Shown in pieces: positions 12,622-63,647 of a DNA stretch of 64,000 nucleotides. Source of the DNA: Deltaproteobacteria bacterium (lineage in GTDB: Bacteria > Myxococcota_A > UBA9160 > UBA4427). A program made the position numbers and the translations under genes. Each line of letters opens with the position of its first letter. Position 1 is the stretch's first letter. Below the pieces are notes generated by a model. The model saw only the letters and a program-made list of their open reading frames with translations. It did no database searches and was not told where the DNA came from. The stretch is from contig PBFW01000073.1 in NCBI GenBank assembly GCA_002719955.1, forward strand, positions 1-64,000. Reading direction: 5' to 3'.

Positions 12622-12687
12622 GGCAGGATCTCCAATTGGCTCAAGGGATTCTTAGATCGGGCCTTTGGATTACTCAAATGAATGATT

Positions 12688-12701
12688 ATGATAGATATCA
12701 T
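12688..12701. promoter_or_regulatory. Perfect 14-base palindrome at the LysR gene start
   Basis: ATGATA-GA-TATCAT (12688-12701) is a perfect 6-2-6 inverted repeat in an AT-rich patch of the divergent plsB/LysR gap, overlapping the chosen LysR start. LysR-type regulators commonly bind such dyads and repress their own genes. A site controlling both directions is inferred from position alone. Confidence 0.45.
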
Positions 12702-15626: not shown

Positions 15627-15638
15627 AGGAGCCCGCCG

Positions 15639-17144: not shown

Positions 17145-17189
17145 GCCGGACCACCGACTAGTGACGTCCCGGGGGCCCGATCTCTCGCG

Positions 17190-17645
17190 TCAGTCCCCGA
17201 GCTGTCGATAGGCTCGCTGGATCTGCTGAGACTTCTCGTGCGCCAGAGCCCGAAGCTCCTCACCCAAATGAGCCACCTTGTCTGGATGATATTCTCTCAT
17301 CCGCGACCGGTAGGCGTCCCTGATCGCGTCGCTGGATGCGGAGCGCGCGACGCCGAGGATCTCGTAGGGATCGAACGCGTTCGGCCGCTCGGTTCCACCC
17401 GTCGCGTTCGGCCCGGTGTCCGCCCCCGTCGGGCGACGGGACGAGGCCCTCTCGGCTGCCCCGGCCTCGTATTGTCGGAGGTGGTGCCGATAGAACCAGA
17501 CGAGCCACGCCATGATCAAGACATCGTCGATGCGTCCCGGAATCCCGAAATAATCAGGGAAGAGATCGTGGGGCAACACGAGGTAGACGATCGCGACGAG
17601 GATCAAACCTTTCAGCAGAGTCCTGGGATCCGTTCGCTCGAACAT
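17190..17645 (-). CDS. DUF1232 membrane protein with C-terminal J-domain
   Basis: 151 residues. The N-terminal half is a short DUF1232-like membrane segment (LLKGLILVAIVYLVLPHDLFPDY, then IPGRIDDVLIMAWLVWFY, two hydrophobic stretches up to residue 52). After a low-complexity Gly/Thr/Arg linker (65-88), residues 90-150 are a J-domain with DPYEILGV and the essential HPD at 120-122. It probably tethers a DnaK-type chaperone to the membrane. It is convergent with the amidase gene and has AGGA six bases before the ATG. Confidence 0.85.
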   Translation of the reverse strand: MFERTDPRTLLKGLILVAIVYLVLPHDLFPDYFGIPGRIDDVLIMAWLVWFYRHHLRQYEAGAAERASSRRPTGADTGPNATGGTERPNAFDPYEILGVARSASSDAIRDAYRSRMREYHPDKVAHLGEELRALAHEKSQQIQRAYRQLGD

Positions 17646-17803
17646 CGGCCCATCCTAGCACCCGCCGCGATCTTCCCGGGCGCCCCGGCGGACGGCGGAC
17701 GGCGGCGAGGACGGCGAGGACGGCGCCTCGCGCGGCCGAGTGGGCGCGCGCTGGGGTCGTGGCATACTCGTCCCGCGTCGATTCAATCGGGTGGAGGTTC
17801 GTC

Positions 17804-18313
17804 ATGAAGAAGGTTTTGCGCGGGCTGGGGTCGATCGTCCTCGTCCTCATTGCACTGCTGATGGTCGTTGCCGTCTACGCCCGCATGCACGATGGCCCGG
17901 TCAGGGCCTTCGCCGGAGGGACGCTGGACTCCGGTCCCTGGAACGACAGTCATGGAATCGATTGGTCCTTCGCAGCGGACCTGCCCACGCTCGAACTCCA
18001 GTTGCTGGAACCGCCGCGGTCTCGCACGGTGTGGATGATCCACCACGACGGAAAGCTCTTCATTCCCTGCGGTATTCCGAACTTCACGCTCTGGAAGAAA
18101 TGGCCTCACGAAGCCGTCGCCAATGGGGAGGCCGTGATCCGCATCGAGGGCAGGCGCTACGCCGTGAAGCTGGTCAAGACCGACGACCGGGACGAGATCT
18201 CCGCGGTCCGGGCGGGCCTCGCTGAAAAATACGATGCGGCGGCTCCGGGCGCCGAAGAGGCGGGCGACCTGCTCTGGATCTTTCGAGTGGAGCCCCGCCA
18301 AGCCGACGCCTAG
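17804..18313 (+). CDS. Membrane-anchored protein of unknown function
   Basis: 169 residues. An N-terminal anchor (residues 8-27, LGSIVLVLIALLMVVAVYA) is followed by a periplasmic domain with SRTVWMIHHDGKLFIPCGI and GEAVIRIEGRRYAVKLVK. The strand pattern is reminiscent of split-barrel flavin-binding proteins (DUF2255 or deazaflavin-dependent nitroreductase type), but the resemblance is weak and I do not assign a function. GGAGG lies six bases before the ATG at 17804, which fixes the start against the longer open frame. A CATACT at 17763-17768 may be its -10. Confidence 0.7.
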   Translation: MKKVLRGLGSIVLVLIALLMVVAVYARMHDGPVRAFAGGTLDSGPWNDSHGIDWSFAADLPTLELQLLEPPRSRTVWMIHHDGKLFIPCGIPNFTLWKKWPHEAVANGEAVIRIEGRRYAVKLVKTDDRDEISAVRAGLAEKYDAAAPGAEEAGDLLWIFRVEPRQADA

Positions 18314-18320
18314 CGAAGCG

Positions 18321-18659
18321 CTATCTCGAAACGTTCTGTGGGCTTCCGCCTCGGCTCAGACAGTCGTTTCTGGACATGAATGGGGTCGCATTTCGCAGCC
18401 GACAACTCACGATTCCCGCTTTCGAGTCCATGGGCCCGAGAGAGGTCGCGCGCTTCCACCAGCGTTTCGACTCCGCAAGCAGCGGGTTCTCCCCGGTCGG
18501 ACCAGCGTCTTGCGGAGCGTCCGACCCCGCCGTCGCAGCGTCCTTGGATTTGTGCGTGGCGGGCGTCTTGGCCGCGGCCGAATCCAATTCGTCGAGGACC
18601 AGACAGCCGATCGAGGTCGAGAGACCAAGGAGCAGGCTGATCAGGAAGAGGCGTCGCAT
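18321..18659 (-). CDS. Small lipoprotein of unknown function
   Basis: 112 residues from the ATG at 18659, picked because it gives a clean lipoprotein signal MRRLFLISLLLGLSTSIGC with the lipobox Cys at residue 19 and has GATGAG six bases upstream. The body is low-complexity (Ala/Asp/Thr/Lys) and ends with two further Cys in VSCRLRNATPFMSRNDCLSRGG, a pattern I associate with short secreted proteins of related bacteria. Convergent with the gene ending at 18313. Function unknown. Confidence 0.6.
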   Translation of the reverse strand: MRRLFLISLLLGLSTSIGCLVLDELDSAAAKTPATHKSKDAATAGSDAPQDAGPTGENPLLAESKRWWKRATSLGPMDSKAGIVSCRLRNATPFMSRNDCLSRGGSPQNVSR

Positions 18660-19255
18660 GGGCATCTCATCGTCGATTTCTCGGCTCTGCTTGAACTGCC
18701 GGTGGGCTGCGTGTGGCTGGGGACCGGCTGCAAATTCCATCGCCGTCTGCCGATGAAGCGTGCCGGGCCTCCTCACCCTTGTAGGGGACCCGGCAAGTCC
18801 AAGGACGCGCCGCTTCGCCGACTGCGGCCGTGAGAACCACGCGTCGCTCAGCTCGGCTCGGCACGACCTCCTGCTTGTCGCTCCGCGTGCCCCCTGCCCC
18901 CGCTCAAGAGACTCTGCCTTTCCGATCGTGGGCTGTGACCCGTCCAGGGTTCAAAAACGCTGTCGAAGGCCGCCACATGAGGCGGGTCTGCGCCGCCAGC
19001 GGACGCATCCAGAGCGAGGTGAGGTATTCGCTCTCGTGCTGGGTCTGATCGGGCCCCAGATCGACCTGGTTGTGTGTATGAGGAGGGTATTCCACGATCG
19101 CGAGACGGAGGAACTCGAAGGCCAGCTGTGCGAAACGAGCTTGCTGGCGCAGCGAGATGGATGGTTGAAACCGCGAACGGTCTCTCTACGCTCCCGAGTC
19201 GAGCGCGCGGCGGGCGCGCCGCGCTGCACCGGGGGCGCCGTTGGGGGACGAGAAT
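18660..19255. other. Long gap with no intact gene; a possible remnant on the minus strand
   Basis: No full gene is supported in these 596 bases. On the minus strand, 18904 to about 19190 reads as a coherent, non-Arg/Ser-rich peptide (QQARFAQLAFEFLRLAIVEY ... TSLWMRPLAAQTRLMWRP) ending in TGA, but it is bounded upstream by a TAG and offers only an internal GTG at 19095 as start. It looks like the tail of a decayed gene. I cannot name the family. Confidence 0.4.
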
Positions 19256-21256
19256 ATGAGGCACGCAGACATTTCGAGGGGACGGGTCGGGCGGCTTCTC
19301 GGGGCGATCCTCGCCTTCTCCTTCTGCTGCTTCGCGGCGAACGCCCATCCCGGGGAGCAGGCTTCGATTCGTCTCGTGCTCCTCGACTGGGTGAACGGCG
19401 TCGCGACCTCGAATGCGGCCCTGCTCGACGCAGCGCTTTCCGAGCATTTCGAACACCTGACGCTCTTTGGCCCGCCCCAGGATCGGAAGAGCTACCGGGC
19501 CGCTGTCGCAAGGGGAGAAGCCCCGGTCAGCGATATCGATCTGCGTCACGCCCACTACGCAGTGAACGGGGACCGCGCACGAATCAGCGACATCCTGGGC
19601 ATCGTCATGCAAACGACGCAGGTCGCGCTGGTCGCCACGCTCACCAAGACCGCCAGCGGCTGGCGACTCGGAGCGATCACCTCGCAGCTCCAGCTCCCGG
19701 TCGCGGCCCGGCGGACCTATCCCGAACAGCTCGTGCGACAGACATTCGAGGTCGAGGTCGTCGATGCCCATCACGGCGATCCGATCTCGAGCCGGATCAA
19801 CGTGGTGGACGAAGCGGGGGATTATTGGGCGCCCGAAGGACATATGCGCGAGGTGTCGACCGGTTGGCGCGAAGACGTCGGCCACGATGTGGTCGTCGCG
19901 GGCAGGACCTGGGCCTATGTGCCCGGGCGGAGCCGTCTGCGCCTACCGCCCGGCCGCTACACCCTCGAAGTCATGCGCGGCTTCGAATACACGCCGGTCA
20001 AGACGGGCTTCGAGATCAAGCCCGGCGAGGATTCGCGTCTGCGCGTCAAGCTCGAGCGGTGGTCGGAGATTCGCCAGGCCGGATGGTATTCGGGCGATAC
20101 CCACGTGCATTTCGTCGATCCCGAGGCGGGACTCCTCGAACTCCTTGGGGAGGATCTCAATGTGCTCAATATCCTGGCCTCGAAATGGGGTGCGCTCGTC
20201 ACGAACGTCGAACATTTCACAGGCGCACCGAGCCGAAGCTCGCTTCCCGAACACGTTGTCTATGTCGGCCAGGAAACGCGCCACGGCTGGCTAGGCCACT
20301 CGATCCTGCTGGGCATCGAACGCCTCGTCTATCCGCTGACCTGGGGCGGACCCTCTGAAGGCGTGCCCGGTGGCTTCGACCATCCCCCGATGGCGACGCA
20401 GGCGGACGCGGCGCATGCGCAGGGCGGGTTGGTGACTGCTGCTCATTTCCCCTGGCCCAACGGCGAATTGGCAGTCGATATCGCGCTCGGAAAGCTCGAC
20501 GCGGTGGATGTATTCACCTGGGGCGATTCTTTTTCGAGCAAGAATGTCATGCCCGCGCCGCCCGCCGTGGCCACCTGGTATCGCTACCTGAATTGTGGCT
20601 TCGACCTGCCCGCCACGGCGGGTACGGACAAGATGTACAACACGCAGGTGTCCGGCTCCGTGCGCGTCTACGCAAAGGTCGACGGCGCCTTCAGCTACGA
20701 CGCCTGGTTGGATGGAATCCGTGCCGGTCGCACCTTCGTCTCCACGGCCCCGATTCTGACCTTCAGCGCGAACGACCGTGAGCTGGGTGAGACCCTCACG
20801 GCAGCGAGTGGAGACCGGATCCGCGTGAAAGCACGTTCGCGTTCGCGAATCCGGGTGGCACGACTCGAGATCGTCGAAGGCGGACGCGTGGTCGCGGCGG
20901 TCGAGAATCCCGATGGACAGCTCGACCTCAGCCTCGAGGCGTCGGTCTCGATCGCGGGCAGCACCTGGCTCGCTGCCCGCGCCTACTCGCCCGAGGAACT
21001 CGCCTACCAGACCTTCTCGATCGCCGGCTTCACAGGGATCCCTGTGATGGCCCATACGAGTCCCATCTACGTGAGTGTGGATGGCGCACCACGACGCTCT
21101 GCGGAGGATGCGCGGGTCCTGCTCGGGTGGGTCTCGGACGCCATCCGATGGGCTCGCAATCAAGGGCGCTTCGCGTCACCCGAAGATCGCGACGAAATGA
21201 TCGCGCTCTTCAGACGCGCCGAGAAGGTCTATCGATCTCAGCTGCGGGCCGAATAG
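19256..21256 (+). CDS. Secreted CehA/McbA-family metallohydrolase (PHP fold) with N-terminal NTF2-like domain
   Basis: 666 residues. A signal peptide (LLGAILAFSFCCFAANAHP) precedes an NTF2/SnoaL-like region (about 35-150: VLLDWVNGVATSNAALLDAAL ... WRLGAI). A carboxypeptidase-regulatory-like strand region follows, then a PHP-type metal domain opened by GWYSGDTHVHF (about 277-286) with TAAHFPWP and PATAGTDKMYN later. CehA/McbA hydrolases include carbaryl hydrolases, but this subfamily is large and substrates are mostly unknown. The ATG at 19256 is preceded by GGGGGA; a TTG at 19241 is also open. Single gene between oppositely oriented neighbours. Confidence 0.8.
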   Translation: MRHADISRGRVGRLLGAILAFSFCCFAANAHPGEQASIRLVLLDWVNGVATSNAALLDAALSEHFEHLTLFGPPQDRKSYRAAVARGEAPVSDIDLRHAHYAVNGDRARISDILGIVMQTTQVALVATLTKTASGWRLGAITSQLQLPVAARRTYPEQLVRQTFEVEVVDAHHGDPISSRINVVDEAGDYWAPEGHMREVSTGWREDVGHDVVVAGRTWAYVPGRSRLRLPPGRYTLEVMRGFEYTPVKTGFEIKPGEDSRLRVKLERWSEIRQAGWYSGDTHVHFVDPEAGLLELLGEDLNVLNILASKWGALVTNVEHFTGAPSRSSLPEHVVYVGQETRHGWLGHSILLGIERLVYPLTWGGPSEGVPGGFDHPPMATQADAAHAQGGLVTAAHFPWPNGELAVDIALGKLDAVDVFTWGDSFSSKNVMPAPPAVATWYRYLNCGFDLPATAGTDKMYNTQVSGSVRVYAKVDGAFSYDAWLDGIRAGRTFVSTAPILTFSANDRELGETLTAASGDRIRVKARSRSRIRVARLEIVEGGRVVAAVENPDGQLDLSLEASVSIAGSTWLAARAYSPEELAYQTFSIAGFTGIPVMAHTSPIYVSVDGAPRRSAEDARVLLGWVSDAIRWARNQGRFASPEDRDEMIALFRRAEKVYRSQLRAE

Positions 21257-47911: not shown

Positions 47912-49027
47912 TCAATCGGCGACGAATTGATCGATCAGCCGGTGAAAAGCGCTGATCCGACACTCGAGTCGATTGTAGATATTCTTCGAATACCCGAAGG
48001 AATGCTTCATCGCATCGACCTCGGCGGCGATCGAGAGATCCTCTTCCATGATGCGATCCATCACGCCGAAGCTCGATTCGACGCTGCGATCCCAGGTCGC
48101 AGCGTCCGTTCCCTCTGGAGCGGTCTTGCGCGCCATCACATATCCCTGACATGAGGTCCGGTTTTCGTCGATCGGATACACGGTGATCAGATAGCCCTGA
48201 TCCGGAAACATATTCAGGAAGGCACAGGGGAATAGGAGATATTGGCAATCCGCGTATTGCTGATGCTCGACCGGCTCGGGCGCCGAATCGATATCGAGCG
48301 CCGTGAGCGGCACGACCATCATGGAGTGTGGGTCGAAGGTCGCGAAGGTCGAGCGCGCGACGTCGAAGCCCCCCCGGACGCTGCGGGCGTGGACCGTCGG
48401 CGTGTGCCATGACTCGAGGAAAGCCTCGAGAACGACCTTCCAGTTGGCGTCGGCGACCCAGTTCGACCCGCCATGATATTTCCAGTCCTCCATCCCGTAC
48501 CACCCGATCTCGTCGACGAGCTCGCCGAGATAGGATTCGATCGAAGGCGCCTTTGCGGGGTCGAAATGGATCCAGATCCACCCCCCCCAGATTCCGACGG
48601 CCACTTCGGCGGTGCGCAGGCCCACGAGCTGGGCGGGATCGAAGGTCTCCTTTTCGGGCACGCTGACCAGTTTTCCCTCGAGATCGAATACGAAACTGTG
48701 AAAGGGGCAGGTCAACCGGCCGCTGTCGCAATGACCGCTCTTCCCGACGATCCGGGCTCCGCGATGGGGGCAGACATTATGGAAGGCCGTGAGTCCGGCA
48801 TCGGGTTGACGCGCGATGACGACCGACTGGCCCAGCTCTTCCCAGACCAGAAAATCCCCCGGATCGGGGAGTTCCTCCACCCGTCCGGCCATATGCCACG
48901 TGTTGCGAAAGAGCCGATCGCGCTCGAGCGCGAAGCGCTGTGGATCCGAATAGACCGACGCGTTCACCTCACCGGGGCCCAAATCCTCCGATTGATCCCT
49001 TCCTTCACCCCACCTGATGACACCCAT
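47912..49027 (-). CDS. Rieske [2Fe-2S] oxygenase (alpha-subunit type, no beta partner nearby)
   Basis: 371 residues from the ATG at 49027 (GGAAGGT six bases upstream). Cluster ligands are Cys86-x-His88 (CPHRG) and Cys107-x-x-His110, written CPFHSF rather than the usual CxxHGW. The iron site is in EAFLESWHTPTVH (His208, His213). The protein is shorter than the dioxygenase at 1564-2898, and no beta-subunit gene is adjacent, so an alpha3-type monooxygenase or demethylase is plausible. Divergent from an EthD-like gene 199 bases away. Substrate unknown. Confidence 0.9.
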   Translation of the reverse strand: MGVIRWGEGRDQSEDLGPGEVNASVYSDPQRFALERDRLFRNTWHMAGRVEELPDPGDFLVWEELGQSVVIARQPDAGLTAFHNVCPHRGARIVGKSGHCDSGRLTCPFHSFVFDLEGKLVSVPEKETFDPAQLVGLRTAEVAVGIWGGWIWIHFDPAKAPSIESYLGELVDEIGWYGMEDWKYHGGSNWVADANWKVVLEAFLESWHTPTVHARSVRGGFDVARSTFATFDPHSMMVVPLTALDIDSAPEPVEHQQYADCQYLLFPCAFLNMFPDQGYLITVYPIDENRTSCQGYVMARKTAPEGTDAATWDRSVESSFGVMDRIMEEDLSIAAEVDAMKHSFGYSKNIYNRLECRISAFHRLIDQFVAD

Positions 49028-49213
49028 GTTATTCACCTTCCGGCCATTCGCATCGGGACTCGGCCCTTCCGGCCACAAAAGATGAGAGACCGCTCCGGCA
49101 TGGTCCCATGCTGTCCCCGCGCCCGTCAAGACACCCTGTGGAGAAGAGTCGACTCGGCCGCGGCGGTCCCAGAATCAGTCCACCCGACAGGCCGATTCGT
49201 CCGCTGGACTCGG

Positions 49214-52779: not shown

Positions 52780-53233
52780 AAGGCCGTACGTGCTCGGTCG
52801 CGAAATCGCTGGTCGCCACCACGCGTCGAAGCGCCGAAGGCTTCACCCACGTACGAATCTGCCCACGCGAACACGCTCCGGAACCGAGGAGCGAGTCGGA
52901 GGCCACCCAAACGGAATATCTGGTGCGGCTCGAGGGACCGATTCCCTTCGCTTCCGGTGATGGCCGCGCGGACAGCCGAAGCGATGCGCTGTACCTCACC
53001 CGTTTCGCTGGGAGGTGACGAGCAAGACGTTTCGCGGCCGAGATCGGAACGCATACCGGCCTTCCCATCCTGATCGCCAGCGACTGGTCATCCGCACTTC
53101 CGTCGTCCGAGTTGTGGCCTCGCATTTCGACAGGTGCCAGCCCCCGCCAATCGATCGACGTCTGCCTGCGTTAGAATCCTCGGGGAGAGCGAATCCATCT
53201 CCGGCACTCGAGGACCTCTTTTCAAGACCGAAC
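52780..53233. other. 454-base gap without a supported gene
   Basis: Several overlapping frames are open on both strands but none looks like a protein family. TAGAAT at 53172-53177 is a possible -10 for the PAS-LuxR gene. No hairpin or RNA gene is seen. Confidence 0.45.
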
Positions 53234-53860
53234 ATGGCTGAACCCAATCCTTCGATGGACCTGATCGACTATTTTTCGCGCCTCGTCGTGGGCGCGGGAG
53301 ATGCACTCAGTATTACCACCGCGAGCGGCCGAATCGTCTATTGGAACAAGGCGGCGGAGGAAGTGACCGGCTGCCCCGCGACCGTGGCGGTCGGTGCCCG
53401 CCTACCAGATATTCTCTCGACCCCCGAGACATTGGAGGCGAGCTGGGGATTCCACCTGGTCATGGTCGCCGCCCACGCCTCGGGGAGCCCACCGCGACGC
53501 CGCTCTTATGCAACCCGGACCTACGCGGACCGGGCCACCCGCGTGTTCGTTTCGACGCTCCAGATACGAGGTCCCGAAGGCGCCCCGGCCTGTTTCATGT
53601 TCAGCTTCACCTCCGCGCCACTCGAAACGGAGATCGACGAGCCACCCGCCCCGGAACTCGGCCTTCGGCCGCGCGAGTGGGAGATTGCTTCGCTCATGAT
53701 GAGCGGACTCGATACCCAGGGGATCTCCGTGGAACTCGGAATCACCCAGGCCACCACCCGGACCCATATACGAAATATCCTGCAGACACTGGGTGTTCGA
53801 TCGCGGGTCCAGGCGCTCACGCGCATCTGGTCGCTCTATGGTGATCCATCAGCCACATAG
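53234..53860 (+). CDS. PAS-domain LuxR-type transcriptional regulator
   Basis: 208 residues from the ATG at 53234. Residues 10-120 form a PAS-like domain (AGDALSITTASGRIVYWNKAAEEVTG is the usual opening, seen at about 20-45). Residues 145-200 form a GerE/LuxR HTH (LRPREWEIASLMMSG, then ITQATTRTHIRNILQTLGV). It lacks a receiver domain, so it probably senses a ligand or redox state through PAS. It lies directly upstream, same strand, of the ketone-carboxylase operon, with a terminator-like hairpin between, making it a candidate regulator. Confidence 0.87.
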   Translation: MAEPNPSMDLIDYFSRLVVGAGDALSITTASGRIVYWNKAAEEVTGCPATVAVGARLPDILSTPETLEASWGFHLVMVAAHASGSPPRRRSYATRTYADRATRVFVSTLQIRGPEGAPACFMFSFTSAPLETEIDEPPAPELGLRPREWEIASLMMSGLDTQGISVELGITQATTRTHIRNILQTLGVRSRVQALTRIWSLYGDPSAT

Positions 53861-54159: not shown

Positions 54160-56301
54160 ATGTCCCGCTACTTGATTGCCTGTGACGCCGGCGGCACGAT
54201 GACAGACGTAATCATCGTCGACGAGAATGGCCACTCCGTGATCGGCAAGGCGGCGACGACGCCGCATGATGAGAGCATCGGCTATATGGAGTCGCTCGAG
54301 GAAGCGCTCCGCTATATGGGCCTCGATCCCGATCGGGATATGGCCCAGGTCTGCGGATCCGCCGAAACCGCGATCTATACGGGCACGAGTATGCTCAATT
54401 CGCTGATCAACCTGTCGGGCCTGCGAACGGGCCTGCTCGTCACGCGCGGCTTCGAGGACATGATCGTTCAGGGCCGCGGCTCTCAGTCCTTCATCGGTTA
54501 TCAGTGGTCCGAGATCACGCATATGCAATACCGCAAGCATCGCGAGCCCCTGATCCCGCGACACCTTACGCGTGGGGCGACCGAGCGAATGGATCTCTTC
54601 GGGGACCCGGCGATCCCGCTCTACGAGCACGAGGTCGAAGCAGCGGTCCGGGATCTGGTCCAGAAAGAAAAGATCGAATCACTCGCCATCGTCTTCCTCT
54701 ATTCCTTTGCCAACCCGGCCCATGAACAGCGCGCCGCTGAAATCGCGAAAAGTGTCTGCCAGGAGCTCGGTGTCGATGTCCCGGTCACACTCTCGAGCGA
54801 CGTCGCCCCCACCGTGCGCGAGATCTCGAGGGCCAATGCAACCGCGATCCAGGCGTATGCCTCCGTTCCGGCGCGGGTTCAGCTGCAACGCATCGAGGAT
54901 GCCCTGGTCAAGTCGGGTTTCGAACATTCGCTGAATACGGTGCTCTGTTATGGAGGCGTCACGAATATTCGCTACCCGCGTCTGTTCGAGACGGTCATGT
55001 CCGGCCCGGTCGGAGGGATCATGGGTGCCCAGCATCTATCGGGCACGCTCCGGGAGGAGAATATCGTCTGCTCCGATGTGGGCGGAACCAGTTTCGACGC
55101 CGGAGCCATCACGGGCGGGAATCTTCCGATCAACCGCGAGCCCCCCTTCCAACAGATGTTCGTGAATGTCCCCATGCTCGATATCCAGTCGATCGGCGCC
55201 GGAACGGGGACCTATATCCGACTCGATCCCGAGACCGGCCGAATCAAGCTCGGCCCGGACAGCGCGGGGGGAACGCCCGGCCCGGTCTTCCAGGAATCGG
55301 GGAATGAGATCCCGACCGTCAACGACTGCAATCTGATGCTCGGGCTCCTGAACGAGGACTACTATCTCGGCGGTCGCGTCCACGTCAACAAACAGAAATC
55401 GATCGATGTCTTCACGGAGAAGATTGCGGCCCCCCTCGGACTCGACCCCTACGCCGCCGCCGAACAATGCCTCGAACTCGTGAATATCACGATGCGCGAG
55501 CATCTGGTACGCAGTCTGATGGTCGGACACGATCTGCGTGATTACGTTCTGCTCGGCTATGGCGGCGGCGGCCCGCTCCATCTATTGGGTTACGCGGCGG
55601 ACGATCCCTGGAAGGCCGTCTGCACGGTCCCACACGCGGGGGCTTTCTCGGCCTGGGGCGGAGCCTGCATGGATTACGCCCATCGCCGCCATCGCAGCCT
55701 CACGAAGATGATCGGCCGCGAGGACTCGCCCGAGAATCGTCAATCCGCCGAGGCGATCTCCGAGATCTGGGACTCCCTCGAAACCGAGCTGGTCGAGGAA
55801 CTCCGCGCCGAGGGCTTCGATGCCGGCCAGATCTCCGTCCACCCGATCGCCTATATCCGGCATTACGGACAGCTCGAGGACGTCGAGGTCGAGGCCCCCA
55901 CCACCCGCCTGGACACCGCGAGGGATGTTGGGCGACTCCTCGACCTCTTCGACCGGACCTTCCGCCAGATGTTCACGCTCGCCGCCCAACCGACGGATCC
56001 GCAATATCAGGTCACCGAAGTCGGCGTGATCGCCCAGGTCGACACCGTGAAGCCGATCCTGGCCCGCCAGATCCTCCAAGACGAATCGCCCCCCCCGCAA
56101 TCGCGCAAGGGCATCCGCCCCGTCTTCCAGAAGGGTCGATGGCAGGACGCGGAGCTCTTCGAGATGAGCGAGCTTCAGCCGGGCAATCGCCTCGACGGTG
56201 TCGCCGTCATCGAGGCGCCCAATACCACGCTCTTCATCCCCGAGGACTGGAAGCTCCGAATCGACGAGCACGCCATCTTCTGGTTGGAGCGAAAGGCATG
56301 A
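54160..56301 (+). CDS. acxA: Acetone-carboxylase-type ketone carboxylase, beta subunit (HyuA family)
   Basis: 713 residues, the length of AcxA. The ATP-site motif is DAGGTMTDVIIVD near the N-terminus, and the series PRHLTRGATERMD, CSDVGGTSFDAGAITGG, GAGTGTYIRLDPETGRIKLG and LRPGNR-like LQPGNRLDG follows the acetone carboxylase beta subunit closely rather than hydantoinase or oxoprolinase. This subunit activates bicarbonate and ketone with ATP. GAGG lies five bases before the ATG. The stop overlaps the acxB start (ATGA). The ketone may not be acetone given the downstream genes. Confidence 0.93.
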   Translation: MSRYLIACDAGGTMTDVIIVDENGHSVIGKAATTPHDESIGYMESLEEALRYMGLDPDRDMAQVCGSAETAIYTGTSMLNSLINLSGLRTGLLVTRGFEDMIVQGRGSQSFIGYQWSEITHMQYRKHREPLIPRHLTRGATERMDLFGDPAIPLYEHEVEAAVRDLVQKEKIESLAIVFLYSFANPAHEQRAAEIAKSVCQELGVDVPVTLSSDVAPTVREISRANATAIQAYASVPARVQLQRIEDALVKSGFEHSLNTVLCYGGVTNIRYPRLFETVMSGPVGGIMGAQHLSGTLREENIVCSDVGGTSFDAGAITGGNLPINREPPFQQMFVNVPMLDIQSIGAGTGTYIRLDPETGRIKLGPDSAGGTPGPVFQESGNEIPTVNDCNLMLGLLNEDYYLGGRVHVNKQKSIDVFTEKIAAPLGLDPYAAAEQCLELVNITMREHLVRSLMVGHDLRDYVLLGYGGGGPLHLLGYAADDPWKAVCTVPHAGAFSAWGGACMDYAHRRHRSLTKMIGREDSPENRQSAEAISEIWDSLETELVEELRAEGFDAGQISVHPIAYIRHYGQLEDVEVEAPTTRLDTARDVGRLLDLFDRTFRQMFTLAAQPTDPQYQVTEVGVIAQVDTVKPILARQILQDESPPPQSRKGIRPVFQKGRWQDAELFEMSELQPGNRLDGVAVIEAPNTTLFIPEDWKLRIDEHAIFWLERKA

Positions 56302-58520
56302 CCGCAGGAGAAGCACCGATGCAGCTCAAGGATGAACTGGCCAAGAGCGACCGCCTGCTCACCGAAACCGGCCATATGTTCGGGCTGAAGACCCTCGCGC
56401 GAAAGGAGGCCGATCCCGGGAACTACGAAGCCCTTTGGCAGATCCTGCTCAATGTATGCGGGATGGCGTGGACCGTCGGCTGCAAGGTTTCCTCATCGCC
56501 GGTCGCCGTCGAAGGCGGAGATGCGCTGTGGAGCATCCATCTTCCGACGGGCGAAGCCGTCGCGACCTCCCGCGGCATCGTCTCCCATCCCGGGCTCCTC
56601 TCGCTGCTCATCCGCAAATATATCGAGAGCGATTACGAATCGATGCCCGGCTTCCATCCCGGCGATATCTTCGAAAACAATGACCCGCATTTCGGGGGGA
56701 TCCACTCGCCGGATTTCCAGACCGTCATTCCGATTCATTTCGAGGGTGAACTGATCGCCTGGGCCGCCTCCGTGAGTCACGTGATGGACGCCGGTTCAGT
56801 GCTACCCGGTGCGATCAGCTTCATGAACCCCGATTCGTTCTCCGACGGCATTCCCTTCACGATGGAACGCGTGGGTGAGAACGATCGTTTCTACCCCTGG
56901 TACGCGAAGCGCATCCAGAGTCGTACCCGCATCCCGGAACTCGTCATAGGTGATTCGCGGGGACGCCTCGCCGGCTGTCTCACGATTCGCGATCGGCTGA
57001 TGGAGGTCGTCGAAAAATTTGGCGCCGATTTCTTCAAAGAAGCCATGCGGGAATACATCGAAGATTCGCGTCGCTATGCGGTGACGCGCGTTCGAACCCA
57101 GACGATTCCGGGGCGCATCCGAAAATCGGCTTTCAAGGATCTCGCCATGAAGGGCAAGCGCGTGATCATGCCCGACCAGGACGCCGATTACCTGATGAAC
57201 CTGAACCAGGAAATCACGATCGACGCGGATGCACGCATCCGCTTCTCCCTGCGCGGCGCGAGCGCCTGGGTCCCCTTCGGAGAGAACATCACACCGGACG
57301 CCATCGTGTCCGCGCTCCTCAACGGCTTCTCCCATATGGTCGGCTTCGACATGTTCAACTGGGGGACGGTGGCCGCCTGGGATCTGGAGACTCCACCTGA
57401 AGGATCCTGGGCAAACCCCTACCCTGCTAACTATTTTGCCGCCTCCGGGTTGGCGTGGGCGCCCGCGGTGCTCTGGCTCTCGTCGCTCTATGAATCCCTG
57501 GGCCGCCTCTACTATGCGCGCGGGTTCGTCGAGGAGGTCGCAGCGGGCGGCGCCACGACCATGGTCGGCGAGTTCGCGGGCGAGAATCAATACGGCGTCT
57601 ACACCATCGGGCAGACACTGGAGCAGGCGAGCAATGGCTCGCCCGCCCGGGCGATCGGTGACGGCGAGAACGGCGCCTGGTCGATCTACACGCCGAATGC
57701 TGATTTCGGAAACGCCGAAATCACCGAGTTCTTCTACCCGATCCTCTACCTGGGCCGAAACCTGGAACCGGATTCCGGAGGCTTCGGGAAATTCCGGGGT
57801 GGCCTCGGGCATACCGTCGTGTGGATGGTGAAGAACACACCGGGGATCGAGTATATCTGTGGTTGTGCGGGGCTGCGCAGCAAGATCATTCCGAACCACG
57901 GAATGTTCGGTGCCTACCCGACGCCGCCCGATCGGCCCTCTTATGCGCGCGGGACCAACGTCAAGGCGCTGATCGACGCGCGCAAGCCGCTCGTTCACGA
58001 GCGTGGCGATCCGGAGGATCCGACCCTCGCTCGCAATATCGAAGCGGAAGATCTTCAGACCGATGTGATCGCTCCCTTCGCGACCGGCGACATCCTCAAG
58101 GAGCACGATCTCATCATCCAGCCGGTCTCGGGCTCTCAAGCTTTCGGCGATCCCATCGAACGAGATCCCGAAAACGTTCGAGAGGATCTCGAGCGTTCCT
58201 GGACGCGCGAACGCCTGGCGCGGGATGTCTATGGCGTCGTGGCGCACCGGGACGAAGACGACCACTGGACCGTCGACGCCGGAGCGACTGAAAAGGCACG
58301 CGCAGAGATCCGGCAGGAACGCAAGAAACGCGGCGTGCCATTCAAGAACTGGTGGCGCGCGGAGAGAAAACGCGTGGAGGCCAGCGAGGGGATGTCATCT
58401 GCCGTAACGAATATGTGGCGGACCTCGATGGAGCTCACACCGGAATACGGCCAGGAACTCCGGGCCTTCTGGAAGCTGCCCGACGATTTCTGCTTCGAAA
58501 CAAAGGAGGCGGAGAAATAG
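56298..58520 (+). CDS. acxB: Acetone-carboxylase-type ketone carboxylase, alpha subunit (HyuB family)
   Basis: 740 residues, HyuB/AcxB type: FHPGDIFENNDPHFGGIHSPDF (split here at 137-158) has the metal-ligand Asp/His set of this family, with SHVMDAGSVLPG, GGFGKFRGGLGH and a typical C-terminal helical tail. It holds the manganese carboxylation centre in acetone carboxylase. Slightly shorter than Xanthobacter AcxB. The ATG at 56298 overlaps the acxA stop by four bases; an ATG at 56319 is an alternative. Complex partner of the genes on either side. Confidence 0.92.
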   Translation: MTAGEAPMQLKDELAKSDRLLTETGHMFGLKTLARKEADPGNYEALWQILLNVCGMAWTVGCKVSSSPVAVEGGDALWSIHLPTGEAVATSRGIVSHPGLLSLLIRKYIESDYESMPGFHPGDIFENNDPHFGGIHSPDFQTVIPIHFEGELIAWAASVSHVMDAGSVLPGAISFMNPDSFSDGIPFTMERVGENDRFYPWYAKRIQSRTRIPELVIGDSRGRLAGCLTIRDRLMEVVEKFGADFFKEAMREYIEDSRRYAVTRVRTQTIPGRIRKSAFKDLAMKGKRVIMPDQDADYLMNLNQEITIDADARIRFSLRGASAWVPFGENITPDAIVSALLNGFSHMVGFDMFNWGTVAAWDLETPPEGSWANPYPANYFAASGLAWAPAVLWLSSLYESLGRLYYARGFVEEVAAGGATTMVGEFAGENQYGVYTIGQTLEQASNGSPARAIGDGENGAWSIYTPNADFGNAEITEFFYPILYLGRNLEPDSGGFGKFRGGLGHTVVWMVKNTPGIEYICGCAGLRSKIIPNHGMFGAYPTPPDRPSYARGTNVKALIDARKPLVHERGDPEDPTLARNIEAEDLQTDVIAPFATGDILKEHDLIIQPVSGSQAFGDPIERDPENVREDLERSWTRERLARDVYGVVAHRDEDDHWTVDAGATEKARAEIRQERKKRGVPFKNWWRAERKRVEASEGMSSAVTNMWRTSMELTPEYGQELRAFWKLPDDFCFETKEAEK

Positions 58521-58521
58521 G

Positions 58522-59067
58522 ATGTCCGAGTACAACCCCCACGAGATCCGACGCCTGGTCGATGGAGAACTGCCCTGGCTGCGCGTCCAGGAAATCATGC
58601 GCAGCCCGAAGGACGCCAACCGATTGCTGGTCTGGATCGAGATCCAGCAGGAACGCGTCGACTGGAACGAGCGCATCCTGCTCCCCCTCACGCCTGCGCT
58701 CTTCATCGTCGAGTCGGGAGCGCGGCGCGTCGTCAAGTGTCGCTGCGGCTTCGAATTCGGGGACGACTACCGCGTCAACTGGAAGCTCGAGGCGCTGATC
58801 TATGTGCACGAGGATCGCGAATCGCTCGACCGGATCTACCGCGGAATCGACCAGCCCGATCCAGATTGGATACAACTGCGCGAATATTCCTGTCCGGGCT
58901 GCGGCACCCAACTCGAGGTAGAGGCGGTCCCGCGCGGCTGCCCGCCGGATTTCGAGTTCCTGCCCGACCTCGACACCTTCTACCGCGACTGGCTCGGCAC
59001 CCCCCTGCCCGACACCAGGACCTTCGAAGACAAGACGCTCTCCGAAATCGCACGCTGGGAGGTGTGA
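58522..59067 (+). CDS. acxC: Acetone-carboxylase-type ketone carboxylase, gamma subunit
   Basis: 181 residues. RRLVDGELPWLRVQEIM, SPKDANRL, RILLPLTPALFIV, CRCGFEF, NWKLEALIYVHE and YSCPGCGTQLEVEA match the small zinc-binding gamma subunit specific to acetone carboxylases, with the paired Cys-x-Cys and Cys-x-x-Cys. Its presence separates this cluster from hydantoinases. One base separates it from acxB, and GGAGGCGGAG precedes the ATG. Confidence 0.93.
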   Translation: MSEYNPHEIRRLVDGELPWLRVQEIMRSPKDANRLLVWIEIQQERVDWNERILLPLTPALFIVESGARRVVKCRCGFEFGDDYRVNWKLEALIYVHEDRESLDRIYRGIDQPDPDWIQLREYSCPGCGTQLEVEAVPRGCPPDFEFLPDLDTFYRDWLGTPLPDTRTFEDKTLSEIARWEV

Positions 59068-59071
59068 GCGC

Positions 59072-60304
59072 TTGAGCGAAATGCCTGCTCCCCCGCTATC
59101 CGCCAGCCACGCGGCGCTGGATGATCTGAGGGTCATCGATCTCTCTCGCTCGTTCTGGTCGGCGCTCGCCGGGACGATGCTCGCGGATTTCGGGGCCGAT
59201 GTGATCCACGTGCACGATCCCGATATGCCGCACGCGTGGCAGGCCGAACTCGAACCCGAGGCGCAGTGGGATTACCTCGCCGAACTCGCCCACCGAAACA
59301 AGCGCAGCGCAGCGATCCGCTCGGACGACGCGACCGGCAGCGATCTGATCGAGCGGCTCTTCGATCGAGCCGATGTGTTGCTGGTCGATTGGCCGATCGC
59401 GGAGCTCACCGCTCGGGGTTGGAGCGCGGAAGCATTGCGGGCCGACCGGCCTCACCTGATCGTGGCACGCGGCAGTGGCTTCGGTCCCGAGGGACCCGAC
59501 TGCGATCTGCCCGCGGACGATGCGATCGCAGCGGCGCGAACCGGCGTGATGCCCACCCTCCCCCAGCCGGGGCAGCCGCCGGTCTTCCCCGAATCCGGTT
59601 CCATGTATACCGCCATCATGCTCGCGTTCGGGGTCATGGCCGCCGTTCATCACCGCGCCGAGAGTGGACAGGGTCAGATCGTCGATGCCTCGCTGCTCGG
59701 GGGCAATATGTACGGCGCGAGCCTCGATCTCCAGGCCTATCTCGCCATTCGGGGGGAGGCCTTCCTGGGACCCATGGCCCAGGCCGACCGAGGCAACCCG
59801 ATGAGCGGCACCCTCTTCATGACGAAGGACGATCGCTGGGTCACGCTGACGATGCCGGACACGGATCGCTGGTGGCCTGACTTTTCGACGTTGATCGGCG
59901 TCCGGCCCGACGACGCGCGTTTTGACGACCACCTGAAACGAACCGAAGAGCATCGAAGCGAGCTGATATCCGTGATCGAAGACGCGATTCGCCTGCGAGA
60001 CGCGGCGGAGTGGCGGGCTTCCTTCGAAGCGCGCGGACTCTCCGCCGATGTGATCGAGGAATTCGACTATCCGGCGGAAGATCTCGAGGCCCGACGGAAT
60101 CGTTATGTGTTGGCCCTCGAGGATTCGAGCCGCGGGGCCTTCAAGACACTCGGATTTCCGATCCACATGTCGCAGACCCCCGCTCGACTCGACCGACGGC
60201 CACCCACACAAGGTCAGCACACTGCGCGCATCCTCCACGATCTTCTGGACCTTTCCGAGGGGGAGATCGACGCCCTCGGAACGCAGGGGGTGATCCGTGC
60301 CTGA
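59072..60304 (+). CDS. CaiB/BaiF (class III) CoA-transferase paralogue lacking the catalytic Asp
   Basis: 410 residues from TTG at 59072 with GGAGG nine bases upstream (ATG at 59081 is an alternative). Fold landmarks: LRVIDLSRSFWSALAGTMLADFGADVIHV, the GFGPEGP turn, and SGQGQIVDASLLGG. At the catalytic position the text reads ESGSMYTAIM where active members have G-D-x-x-G, so the Asp that forms the mixed anhydride is replaced by Ser. Likely a non-catalytic partner of the next CoA-transferase, which overlaps it by eight bases. Confidence 0.85.
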   Translation: MSEMPAPPLSASHAALDDLRVIDLSRSFWSALAGTMLADFGADVIHVHDPDMPHAWQAELEPEAQWDYLAELAHRNKRSAAIRSDDATGSDLIERLFDRADVLLVDWPIAELTARGWSAEALRADRPHLIVARGSGFGPEGPDCDLPADDAIAAARTGVMPTLPQPGQPPVFPESGSMYTAIMLAFGVMAAVHHRAESGQGQIVDASLLGGNMYGASLDLQAYLAIRGEAFLGPMAQADRGNPMSGTLFMTKDDRWVTLTMPDTDRWWPDFSTLIGVRPDDARFDDHLKRTEEHRSELISVIEDAIRLRDAAEWRASFEARGLSADVIEEFDYPAEDLEARRNRYVLALEDSSRGAFKTLGFPIHMSQTPARLDRRPPTQGQHTARILHDLLDLSEGEIDALGTQGVIRA

Positions 60305-61535
60305 GGCGAGCGAAACACCGACGACCCGGGGTGCGCTCGATGGAATCCGGGTGATCGATCTCACCGTCTGGTTCCAGGGACCCGTTTGTGCACAGCATCT
60401 TGCAGATTTCGGAGCCGACGTGATCAAGGTCGAAAGACCCAAGGGCGGCGATCAGGGCCGCGGCGTCATGAGCCTGAAGGCGCTGCCGGTGGGCGACTGG
60501 AATCAATATTTCCTCGTGATCAACCGGAACAAGCGGAGCGTCGCCCTCGATCTCAAGACGGACGAGGGTCGTGGGATCATGTATCGGATGGTCGAAAACG
60601 CGGATGTCTTTCTTTCGAATCTCTCGCCGGCGCTGCTCGAACGCTGGGGCCTCGACTACGAAAAGCTGCGAGCGATCAATCCGCGAATCGTCTACGCCAT
60701 GAACACGGGCTACGGCCCCCATGGATCCGCCGATCGCCCCTCCTTCGACATGACCGTGCAGGCGCTCACCGGCATCATGGCGCACCTCGGGGAGCCGGGT
60801 CAGCCGCCGATCTATCTCGGCATGGGCTCGGGCGACGCCTATGGCGGGCTCATGTCAGCCCTCGGAATCCTGATCGCGCTCCATGCTCGACGACGGACGG
60901 GAAGGGGGCAGATGCTCGATGCGTCCCTATACGGCGCCCAGCTCTTCCTCGCGGCGCCCGCGATCCAGGCCTATCTGGCGACCGGCGATCGCCGGCTGGC
61001 GCGCCAACAATCTCGCTTAGACCGCCCACAGCCCCTGCGAAATGCCTTTCCGGTGGAGGACGGTTGGGTGGTGTTGGCCCTCGACGGGAGCGAAACGTCC
61101 TGGTCGAAGCTCTGTGGCACGCTCGGTGACGATGACCTCGTCGGCGACCCACTTTTTGCGGACGCCTCGCTTCGGAAAGACAACGCGCGTGCGCTCGTCG
61201 GGCGTCTCGACAAAATCCTCTCGAGCCGCCCCGCCGAGCAATGGCTCACCCGCTGGCAGAAGGCCGGAATTCCCGCCTCGGCGATCCGAACCTTTGAGGA
61301 CCTCGTGGCGGATCCGCAGGCGTGGCACAATCGTTACCTGATGACGACGCACTGCGAAGAGGTCGATCGCGAGGTGGATATCCGTGGACTGCCCATCGGC
61401 CTGAGCGAGACACCCGGCGCCGTCGAAGGGCTCGGTCCCGAGCTCGGCGAGCACACGGAGATCCTGTTAACGGAACTCTTCGGCTACACCTGGGACGACA
61501 TCGAACGATTCAAGACGGCCGGGGCGATCCCCTAG
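60297..61535 (+). CDS. CaiB/BaiF (class III) CoA-transferase
   Basis: 412 residues from GTG at 60297, with GCAGGGGG six bases upstream inside the end of the preceding gene. IRVIDLTVWFQGPVCAQHLADFGADVIKVERP opens the fold (quoted in part), then NRNKRSVALDLK, GYGPHG, and the catalytic-Asp segment GSGDAYGGLM, then GRGQMLDASLYG. Class III transferases move CoA between acids via an Asp anhydride. In this operon the acceptor would be the beta-keto acid made by the carboxylase. Overlap with the inactive paralogue suggests a heteromer. Confidence 0.92.
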   Translation: MPEASETPTTRGALDGIRVIDLTVWFQGPVCAQHLADFGADVIKVERPKGGDQGRGVMSLKALPVGDWNQYFLVINRNKRSVALDLKTDEGRGIMYRMVENADVFLSNLSPALLERWGLDYEKLRAINPRIVYAMNTGYGPHGSADRPSFDMTVQALTGIMAHLGEPGQPPIYLGMGSGDAYGGLMSALGILIALHARRRTGRGQMLDASLYGAQLFLAAPAIQAYLATGDRRLARQQSRLDRPQPLRNAFPVEDGWVVLALDGSETSWSKLCGTLGDDDLVGDPLFADASLRKDNARALVGRLDKILSSRPAEQWLTRWQKAGIPASAIRTFEDLVADPQAWHNRYLMTTHCEEVDREVDIRGLPIGLSETPGAVEGLGPELGEHTEILLTELFGYTWDDIERFKTAGAIP

Positions 61536-61557
61536 GCAGATCGGAAGGGGCTCGCAA

Positions 61558-62391
61558 ATGAGTTGGAGTGAGTGGCAGCGCACAGAAGGAGAGGGACTCG
61601 ACTTCGAAGAGATCGTGTACGAAAAGAAAGAGCATCTGGAGCTCCACGGTTGCATCGCTCGGGTCACGATCGACAAGCCCGAGAAATACAACATCATGAC
61701 GCTCGACACGGTCGAAGAAATGTTCCGCGCCTTCTATGACGCCAATCACGACCCCTCGGTGGGCGTGATCGTCCTCTGTGGTAGCGGTAAGAATTTCGGG
61801 ACCGGCGGGGACGTCGAATGGGAGAAATGGGGGCTTCGCCAAGCCTTCTACAACCGCTATCCACACAACCGCCTGATGCGCCTCTCGCGCAAGCCGATCC
61901 TCGCCGCAGTTCAGGGCTATTGCATCGGTGGCCACAACCATATGGCCTATTGCTGCGATTTCACGATCGCCGCCAGCAATGCGATCTTCGGCCAGGCGGG
62001 GCCCAAGGTCGGCAGCCCCGCCGACGGTTTCTTCGTTCCCTATCTCTCGAAGGTGATCGGCGCGAAACGGGCCCGCGAGATGTGGATGCTCTGCCGCAAA
62101 TATCCGGCCCAGCGCGCCTACGAGATGGGACTCGTAAACGAGGTTGTCGAACTCGAGGATCTCGAGGGCGCCGTCGACTGCTGGTGCGAAGAAATGTTGA
62201 GCTTGAGCCCTGGCTGTCTCGAGATCCTCAAGGCTTCCTTCGACCAGGAAATGGATGGCTACTCTGAGATGGGCGTGATCTCCCATTCGATGTATCCAGA
62301 CTGGTTCGACTCGGCGGAGTGCGCAGAAGGCCCGGCGTCGTTCTCCGAGAAGCGCAAGCCCAATTTCTGGGACATCCGCCGCGGCTCCTGA
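61558..62391 (+). CDS. Crotonase-fold enzyme of the MenB/BadI type
   Basis: 277 residues. ARVTIDKPEKYNIMT, the oxyanion region KNFGTGGDVEW, GYCIGGHNHMAYCCDFTIA and NAIFGQAGPKVGSPADG follow MenB (DHNA-CoA synthase) and BadI (2-ketocyclohexanecarboxyl-CoA hydrolase), as does the C-terminal KRKPNFWD. BadI cuts a cyclic beta-ketoacyl-CoA by hydrolysis. The Asp that MenB/BadI carry as GS-x-D is displaced by one position here (GSPAD), so the exact chemistry is open. Menaquinone synthesis is unlikely since no other men genes are near. It follows the CoA-transferase by 22 bases. Confidence 0.87.
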   Translation: MSWSEWQRTEGEGLDFEEIVYEKKEHLELHGCIARVTIDKPEKYNIMTLDTVEEMFRAFYDANHDPSVGVIVLCGSGKNFGTGGDVEWEKWGLRQAFYNRYPHNRLMRLSRKPILAAVQGYCIGGHNHMAYCCDFTIAASNAIFGQAGPKVGSPADGFFVPYLSKVIGAKRAREMWMLCRKYPAQRAYEMGLVNEVVELEDLEGAVDCWCEEMLSLSPGCLEILKASFDQEMDGYSEMGVISHSMYPDWFDSAECAEGPASFSEKRKPNFWDIRRGS

Positions 62392-62444
62392 TCGCGCCGC
62401 CAGAGGCAGCGCCGTCGGCGCGATCGAAAAGGGAGCATTCCGCC

Positions 62445-63647
62445 GTGGGGGATGAAAAGGGCATCGTCGCCGACCGCATTCGCAGCGATGCAAGCGCGGT
62501 CGCGGGCTTAGACGACCCCGAGGCGTATCTCTTTGATGCGAATCTCGAGGCGCTGGTGGATTCGGTCAACCGCGAGGGTGACCTGCCGGAGTCCGGTTTG
62601 AAGGAGACCCACAGCGAATTCACCCACGCCCTGGCGAATCGGCTCCTCACGCTGAAATGGGTTGGGGATCACCCCGAAATCCTCGATGAGCCCATCACTG
62701 GCCCGATCTTCCTGACCGGCTTGCCGCGCTCGGGAACCACCTTCTTCCAACAACTCTTCGATCGCAATCACGACCTGCGGCTGATCAGGACCTGGGAGAC
62801 GATTTCGCCCTGCCCCCCCCCGGCGATCGACCCCGAATCACGCCAGCAGCGAATCGCGACCGTTCGCGCCCACGACGACGCATTGCGGAAGAAGATCAGC
62901 GAATTCGACGCGATTCACCTTCGCGACGCCGAGGGTGCCGAGGAATGCCATCATTTTCTGGCGCAGACGTTCTCGGCCATCGGCTTCCACAATTACATGA
63001 ACGTGCCCTCCTACGTGGAGTACCTATTCTCGGATCTGGATCTAGCGGCCGCCTATCGCGCGCACAAGCGTCAACTCCAGCTCCTACAATGGGGCGGGAC
63101 ACGCAAGCGGTGGGCTCTGAAATATCCGAACCACCTCATCGCCATGGAAGAGATCCTGCGCGTCCACCCGGACGCGACCTTCGTCATGACCCACCGCGAC
63201 CCGGTTCAGACCCTCGCTTCCCTCTGTCGGCTCACGGCCGCTTTCCGCGTGCCCAGAATGCGGCGGATCGATCCCGGCGAAGTCGGCGCCCAGATGTTCG
63301 ATTTTATCGCCCGCCACCTCGACCGTCTGATGCGCTTCGCGACATCGGAAGAGGGGCCCGCGCGCATCGTCAACGTCGATTATTATGATCTGGTCGTTTC
63401 GCCCGCCGACACATTGGCGAAGGCCTACCAAGGACTCGGCATGGAAATGCCGGCCTCCCTCAGGCACGACGTGGAGCAATGGCGCCTGGCCAACCCGAAA
63501 GGCAAACGCGGCGTGGCCCCCTACACGTTGGAGGAATTCGGTCTGATCGACGACGAGGTCGCCGAACGATTCTCTTCCTATACCCGCCATTTCGACATAC
63601 CCCGCGAAGGGGAGGCCGAACGACGGCATGCGAGTCCCCACCCATGA
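62445..63647 (+). CDS. PAPS-dependent sulfotransferase-family protein
   Basis: 400 residues from GTG at 62445 with GGGAG nine bases upstream. The 5'-phosphosulfate loop is TGLPRSGTTFFQQLF (91-105) and the 3'-phosphate segment is MTHRDPVQTLASLCRL (about 246-261). This is the Sulfotransfer_3-type family common in these lineages, where many members have no proven activity. Its place after the crotonase and its four-base overlap with the next gene put it in the operon. A role in modifying a hydroxylated substrate is possible; unproven. Confidence 0.85.
   Translation: MGDEKGIVADRIRSDASAVAGLDDPEAYLFDANLEALVDSVNREGDLPESGLKETHSEFTHALANRLLTLKWVGDHPEILDEPITGPIFLTGLPRSGTTFFQQLFDRNHDLRLIRTWETISPCPPPAIDPESRQQRIATVRAHDDALRKKISEFDAIHLRDAEGAEECHHFLAQTFSAIGFHNYMNVPSYVEYLFSDLDLAAAYRAHKRQLQLLQWGGTRKRWALKYPNHLIAMEEILRVHPDATFVMTHRDPVQTLASLCRLTAAFRVPRMRRIDPGEVGAQMFDFIARHLDRLMRFATSEEGPARIVNVDYYDLVVSPADTLAKAYQGLGMEMPASLRHDVEQWRLANPKGKRGVAPYTLEEFGLIDDEVAERFSSYTRHFDIPREGEAERRHASPHP

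Follow-up and report, generated by a model that had tools for sequence, protein, structure and literature searches.

A set of six genes, present in several bacterial phyla, looks like an undescribed system for ketone breakdown that uses CO2 and ATP instead of oxygen. It was analysed in an uncultured Deltaproteobacteria bacterium of the Myxococcota_A lineage, in a stretch of 64,000 nucleotides (assembly GCA_002719955.1, contig PBFW01000073.1, positions 1 to 64,000), called hereafter the window, where it occupies positions 54160–62391. The genes encode homologues of the beta, alpha and gamma subunits of acetone carboxylase, two class III (CaiB-type) CoA-transferase homologues, Cai1 and Cai2, and a crotonase, CRO. 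On balance, we favor the reading of their sequences in which all six form one catabolic unit for ketone carboxylation, CoA transfer and hydrolytic C-C cleavage. Both the unit itself and its conservation are real, and the route it suggests is probably new. Family membership, conserved residues, linkage and co-occurrence were read from the sequences; substrate, CoA donor, order of the steps and hydrolytic outcome are what we infer.

The six genes all lie on the + strand and are separated by 17, 1, 4, −8 and 22 bases, in agreement with the original prediction, which had described a single run in which no overlap or gap exceeds 22 bases and had given the same open reading frame (ORF) coordinates. 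Families were assigned by Pfam profiles and by comparison with PDB sequences. None of the six proteins reached the cut-off of any NCBIfam family listed (for the crotonase, among the best 25 of 68), so that no protein of the set belongs outright to an enzyme named in that collection.

The closest solved relatives of beta, alpha and gamma are the acetone carboxylase subunits (5m45/5svb; 540, 387 and 134 bits), as predicted. Acetophenone carboxylase scored well below them (333, 150 and 30 bits), as did the 5-oxoprolinase/hydantoinase entries of the PDB. Subunits are labelled here by the PDB naming of acetone carboxylase; PMC5214803, in its available part, calls the product of the first gene alpha. 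The same partial text characterizes the acetone carboxylase (Acx) branch by the gene order acxA-acxB-acxC, a HydB-type subunit of about 720 residues, four gamma cysteines, and a gamma subunit longer than that of acetophenone carboxylase (Apc). The window has this gene order, a HydB-type subunit of 733 residues and a gamma subunit of 181 residues (the matching Apc chain has 129), whose Cys73, 75, 124 and 127 correspond to the two Cys pairs of 5m45_C. Residues were paired with 5m45 from HMMER alignments. The manganese ligands His150, Asp153 and His175 of acetone carboxylase (PMC5543143, available part) are found as His129, Asp132 and His154 in the window alpha, and the fourth, Glu89, is conservatively replaced by Asp68; all four positions are invariant across 14 aligned alpha sequences. 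In beta, the adenine-stacking Phe405 is replaced by Tyr402, and Ser391 by Asn388. The NCBIfam equivalog cut-offs for ApcC, ApcD and ApcB were not reached (338/1500, 160/1500 and 29/250 bits). Gene order, subunit lengths, gamma cysteines and metal ligands therefore fit a three-subunit enzyme of the Acx branch.

By its alpha subunit, the window enzyme lies in a clade of its own. A midpoint-drawn tree of 48 alpha rows, without Apc rows and after removal of one sequence that was too short (L003), grouped the 38 rows of the window's family in one clade (100/99). Eight plasmid acetone carboxylases formed a separate clade beside it (84/92), and the two Hyd rows of the host fell outside, on very long branches. 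The family occurs in Myxococcota, Actinobacteria, Chloroflexi and Gammaproteobacteria. The nearest named match of the window alpha is locus L056, from a metagenome-assembled genome labelled “Myxococcota bacterium” (94% identity). Neither of these two sequences falls into the 31-row clade that contains most of the Myxococcota rows (98/99); both stand beside L058 and L092, where support is weak (82/71). This position would be accounted for by horizontal transfer or by an old paralogue.

Both transferase homologues passed the Pfam CoA_transf_3 cut-off of 23.3 bits, Cai1 with 224 and Cai2 with 368 bits. They differ at the column of one Asp. Cai2 has Asp180, within a GSGDA motif, and this Asp, conserved in the alignment of Cai2 to 4ed9, is the one that we take to be the catalytic Asp of class III CoA-transferases. 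Cai1 has a two-residue deletion and, at the Asp180 column, Ser177, followed by Met178. The deletion and the absence of Asp were common to all 13 Cai1 rows, aligned with six rows of Cai2 and four of Cai3 (a third transferase, encoded next in many relatives, though neither in the window nor in L056), both of which have the Asp. When only distinct matched stretches of 250 residues or more were counted, and the window was left out, the Asp was present in 35/35 relatives of Cai2, 32/32 of Cai3 and 0/34 of Cai1 (24 Gln, 4 Pro, 3 Ser, 1 Glu, 1 Gly, 1 Ala). Because Cai1 lacks the catalytic Asp and Cai2 keeps it, the two are probably subunits of one heteromeric CoA-transferase, Cai2 being catalytic and Cai1 non-catalytic or structural. 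This changes the original prediction, which had named two CaiB-type CoA-transferases; two independent CaiB enzymes are disfavored by the missing Asp in Cai1.

A CoA-loading role of the pair is supported by analogy, because CoA ligases take this place in kin without CaiB and in the Apc operon. A Halieaceae locus devoid of CaiB (L060) has a luciferase-like gene and, behind it, two AMP-binding ligase genes, whose starts are some 1.2 and 3.6 kb downstream of gamma. On a haloarchaeal plasmid of Natronorubrum (L124:399–5084), a CoA ligase gene directly follows the gamma gene of an acetone-carboxylase-like set; a further HydB-type gene lies nearby. For acetophenone, the available part of PMC5214803 assigns a benzoylacetate-CoA ligase to the carboxylase operon.

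The crotonase had been predicted to be MenB/BadI-like, which was correct as to branch. Its best PDB match is the MenB-type 2iex (202 bits), and a Foldseek search returned MenB-type enzymes throughout among the 50 of 1750 matches listed; the structure model, of moderate quality (mean predicted local distance difference test score 65, active-site loops below 50), was used for the fold only. CRO is not BadI by family cut-off (TIGR03210, 204.7 bits for a cut-off of 467.6), nor did it reach those of the NCBIfam MenB models (231.6 and 200.1 bits for 380 and 342.7), and it is as close to an annotated MenB (43% identity) as to two annotated BadI proteins (42–44%). His128, Ser153 and Asp156 were found in 29/29 distinct relatives, and Phe250 in 28/29, the last row having a gap. 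At the columns of His128 and Gly148, two hydratases compared have Glu, and BadI and MenB have Val and Gly. By these residues CRO is a conserved subtype of the MenB/BadI branch, with His at a hydratase Glu column and Phe in place of the MenB/BadI Tyr. The best match by bits among the 20 of 1472 plasmid relatives listed, a Leisingera protein 46% identical to CRO, has the same His and Phe. Its gene directly precedes an annotated acetoacetate-CoA ligase gene, which points to a beta-ketoacyl-CoA as the substrate of CRO. A precedent from steroid catabolism is EchA20, a MenB-clustering crotonase for which hydrolytic ring opening was shown with purified enzymes (PMC5380842, available part). BadI-like hydrolysis of a cyclic beta-ketoacyl-CoA by CRO is possible.

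Could the operon simply serve acetone or butanone assimilation, with acetoacetate converted to acetoacetyl-CoA, and the crotonase being a bystander or a beta-oxidation hydratase? The carboxylase is indeed closest, among solved proteins, to acetone carboxylases. We nevertheless consider this unlikely, since the alpha clade is distinct from that of the plasmid enzymes, seven of which are some 32–33% identical to the window alpha among the matches listed. Eight plasmid loci were inspected: six annotated acetone carboxylase operons, the CoA ligase locus L124, and L127, which is not annotated. A sigma-54 or helix-turn-helix regulator accompanies each of the six annotated operons, and the gene table, which is incomplete, lists neither CaiB nor a crotonase within 7 kb of any of them (within 6 kb in the case of L101). 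Finally, His128 and Gly148 at the two Glu columns disfavor an enoyl-CoA hydratase role for CRO.

Linkage was inspected in 41 named loci from several phyla, of which 31 extend at least 4.5 kb beyond alpha and were testable. Gamma was found in 28 of these, Cai1 and Cai2 both after gamma in 24, and CRO in 14. In the window, L056 and L095 (a Gammaproteobacterium), carboxylase, Cai1, Cai2 and CRO genes are consecutive on one strand. The original prediction had called for a search for the same gene order in other genomes and would have been refuted by a lack of conserved linkage; the opposite was observed, the carboxylase being linked in other genomes both to class III CoA-transferase genes and to this crotonase. 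Co-occurrence was then counted in 60 related draft genomes, host included (E 1e-100 for alpha and Cai2, 1e-60 for CRO). Alpha was present in 25, Cai2 in 28 and CRO in 27; 21 genomes had all three and 29 none. Alpha and Cai2 were found together in 24 genomes and apart in 1 and 4, Cai2 and CRO together in 25 and apart in 3 and 2, alpha and CRO together in 21 and apart in 4 and 6. The three were all present or all absent in families f6 and f8, and varied together in f1, with the exceptions of G009, G019 and G029. With the same order found in further phyla, and the genes going together at the level of whole genomes, the linkage is more than chance.

Several observations weigh against a single six-gene unit. 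The one-sided Fisher p values for co-occurrence, 2e-7 (alpha/CRO) to 1e-11 (alpha/Cai2), are uncorrected for kinship. Seven of the 31 loci lack the CaiB pair, namely L060 and six from Actinobacteria, including both loci with the gamma fusion described below. Four genomes (G019, G032, G035, G043) have Cai2 and CRO without alpha, two (G029, G030) have CRO without alpha or Cai2, and four (G009, G049, G053, G056) have alpha without CRO. CRO itself lacks the C-terminal Tyr of MenB and BadI, having Phe250 instead, and the Asp of its SxD motif is shifted by one column, so that its chemistry may differ from theirs; the hydratase Glu, the MenB/BadI Tyr and the SxD Asp are presumably catalytic.

Since four relatives keep Cai2 and CRO alone, carboxylase, Cai2 and CRO are not inseparable. 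It is conceivable, if rather improbable, that the transferase-crotonase pair is the real unit, acting on a beta-keto acid or a dicarboxylate that several sources can supply, with the carboxylase as one exchangeable feeder. Such a pair would account for these four genomes and for the frequent association of CRO with a molybdenum hydroxylase/SCPx module instead. It is also favored by G019 (locus L055), where a gamma fragment of 33 residues remains just before Cai1 (contig C47, near 178222–178317) and no alpha match was found in the genome at E 1e-100; there, the carboxylase genes were apparently lost and the transferases kept. Against it stand the consecutive, same-strand genes of the window, L056 and L095, and the presence of Cai2 in 24/25 genomes with alpha.

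That the hydantoinase-type proteins are instead an ATP-dependent lactamase with a CoA-transferase, as in anaerobic indoleacetate breakdown, was rated very improbable: PMC5214803, in its available part, does name a gamma-lactamase of indoleacetate metabolism in this family and the phenylsuccinyl-CoA transferase of that pathway in its reference list, and relatives of the operon also have molybdenum hydroxylase and BbsAB-like thiolase genes, but the same source describes Hyd complexes as two-subunit, whereas gamma is present here, and their HydB-type subunit as about 150 residues shorter than that of Acx (about 720; 733 here), three of four metal ligands are identical to acetone carboxylase, and the two host Hyd rows fall outside in the tree.

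In relatives, CRO is often associated with a second module. Among 16 further stretches, 13 had a CRO orthologue, and all 13 of these an XdhL-type molybdenum hydroxylase. The gene order in L112 is XdhM-XdhS-XdhL, an ORF of 317 residues with no Pfam match, SCPx, DUF35 of the ChsH2 type and a hydratase with EchA19 as its closest match (284 bits, for a cut-off of 400); in L064, an Amidohydro_2 gene takes the place of the 317-residue ORF. The best PDB match of the L112 SCPx protein (252 bits) is 6ok1, deposited as a lipid-transfer protein, which we take to be the aldolase Ltp2. All 17 distinct SCPx rows have the motif YDCF. In the motif list of PMC12329534 (available part), YDHF denotes Ltp2, YDCY Sal, YDCF SLP, and HDCF SCP-2 thiolases, so that the SCPx protein is likely a retro-aldolase, although the product of Sal is an aldehyde and not a ketone. 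The retro-aldolase module was observed in Myxococcota, in Actinobacteria and in a single Gammaproteobacterium. In both Acidimicrobiia loci scanned, L064 and L080, a single protein fuses gamma, a ChsH2-type DUF35 domain and an enoyl-CoA hydratase (crotonase) domain; neither the CaiB pair nor CRO was found in the stretches fetched, and L064 has a second, free gamma gene (12224–12850). The fusion thus links the module to the carboxylase in Acidimicrobiia. The genes beside CRO, together with these fusions, suggest that the ketone of relatives may come from retro-aldol removal of a side chain.

In the host genome, XdhL was without a match at E 1e-80, and the best SCPx match (49% identity, 355 bits) is not a close orthologue, so that the window operon is a minimal version of the system. 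At E 1e-60, 11 SCPx-thiolase/aldolase homologues were counted in the host (G000). Upstream of the carboxylase in L049, a divergent set (14956–19901) encodes FabK/NMO-like, electron transfer flavoprotein (ETF) beta, ETF alpha, DUF35 and BbsB-like thiolase proteins; ETF and thiolase families were found in 15/26 stretches.

In the proposed route, a ketone, probably larger than acetone, would react with bicarbonate at its alpha-carbon on the metal- and ATP-dependent three-subunit carboxylase, and an unstable beta-keto acid would result. Cai1-Cai2 would trap this acid by placing CoA, perhaps from succinyl-CoA, on the new carboxylate, and CRO would split the beta-ketoacyl-CoA so formed in a retro-Claisen hydrolysis. 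The products from a linear ketone would be an acid and an acyl-CoA, and from a cyclic one an opened dicarboxylic mono-CoA ester. The net reaction would be an oxygen-independent counterpart of Baeyer-Villiger cleavage, at the cost of ATP. In relatives, the ketone may be supplied by the hydratase/retro-aldolase module (EchA19-like, Sal/Ltp2-like SCPx and DUF35). The predicted conversion of a ketone and CO2 into a beta-ketoacyl-CoA and then an opened acid is partly supported: the Acx-branch enzyme with its conserved metal-site residues and its linkage to CoA-transferase and crotonase genes agree with it, whereas the crotonase is not BadI by family cut-off and four relatives have Cai2 and CRO without the carboxylase.

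More tentatively, the system may open the rings of terpenoid- or steroid-like compounds without oxygen: the side chain would be removed via hydratase and retro-aldolase/DUF35, and the resulting cyclic ketone carboxylated, loaded with CoA and opened by a new His-type hydrolase of the MenB branch. Ring opening is one option among several, and the window contains no sign of a cyclic ketone. The usual enzymes of ring ketone cleavage are Baeyer-Villiger oxygenases, which require O2 (PMC7794910, available part, and established knowledge). A CO2- and ATP-driven route would explain the oxygenase-free breakdown of such carbon skeletons in uncultured lineages, and would widen the substrate range of a family whose characterized carboxylases, in the literature available in part, act on acetone, butanone and acetophenone. 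The view that the route is perhaps undescribed held up, no such gene set having been found in the titles and abstract openings of the open-licence papers listed. The literature search returned nothing relevant on carboxylation of menthone or cyclohexanone, and the available part of a menthone review (PMC7794910) has none. The operon offers six concrete genes for expression and assay.

The host genome comprises 5.85 Mb in 77 contigs (94% completeness, 8.6% contamination). Of eight other genomes of the same genus searched, one has the operon (L031/L056); there too, a homologue (430 bits) of the PAS-LuxR protein lies directly upstream, and this protein is a candidate regulator of the operon. In a different frame, the end of the crotonase gene is shared with a Sulfotransfer_3 ORF (62319–63647), which probably starts later than these bounds and has no match in the same-genus locus L031. 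The Rieske-type gene in the table lies about 5 kb upstream of the operon.

Table. Genes of the ketone carboxylation operon, its surroundings and the related gamma fusions (window positions unless a locus is named)
Feature	Position	Strand	Details
Ketone carboxylase nucleotide-binding subunit, Hydantoinase_A type (beta, PDB naming)	54160..56301	+	713 aa; 5m45_B 540 bits over residues 5-710
Ketone carboxylase metal-site subunit, Hydantoinase_B type (alpha, PDB naming)	56319..58520	+	733 aa; 5m45_A 387 bits
Ketone carboxylase zinc subunit (gamma)	58522..59067	+	181 aa; Acetone_carb_G PF08882 116 bits (cut-off 21); 5m45_C 134 bits
Cai1, class III CoA-transferase homologue, probably non-catalytic subunit	59072..60304	+	TTG start; CoA_transf_3 224 bits
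Cai2, class III CoA-transferase, probably catalytic subunit	60297..61535	+	CoA_transf_3 368 bits
CRO, MenB/BadI-branch crotonase, proposed C-C hydrolase of beta-ketoacyl-CoA	61558..62391	+	ECH_1 180 bits
Candidate local regulator, PAS-LuxR type	53015..53860	+	PAS + GerE domains; ORF bounds, true start may be internal
Rieske-type ring-hydroxylating oxygenase alpha subunit	47912-49129	-	Rieske + Ring_hydroxyl_A
Gamma-DUF35-hydratase fusion	L064:18842-20647 and L080:18872-20635		

Among known systems, AcxABC of Xanthobacter (5m45/5svb) shares the three-gene order, the subunit lengths, the His/Asp/His metal ligands and the gamma cysteines. The window family differs by its own clade, by the change of Glu89 to Asp68, and by the class III CoA-transferase and crotonase genes that follow the carboxylase. 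Acetophenone carboxylase (ApcA-E) with its benzoylacetate-CoA ligase likewise combines ketone carboxylation with subsequent CoA activation by a gene of the same operon, but has a second ATP subunit and an epsilon subunit and acquires CoA via the ligase, and the available part of its description states no crotonase. Among class III CoA-transferases, the solved benzylsuccinate CoA-transferase (9fn0) also has two different chains; matches to its better chain are weak (Cai1 62, Cai2 146 bits), and the likeness seen is one of class and chain number. CRO shares with BadI, the 2-ketocyclohexanecarboxyl-CoA hydrolase, the crotonase branch, the FGQxGPKV core and Ser153, and departs from it, besides the family cut-off, by Phe250 for Tyr, the Asp shifted by one column and His128 for Val. 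Mycobacterial EchA20, set beside CRO by description only (PMC5380842, available part), is a MenB-clustering crotonase that hydrolyses a ring beta-ketoacyl-CoA; it differs in acting together with IpdF, IpdC and IpdAB and without carboxylation.

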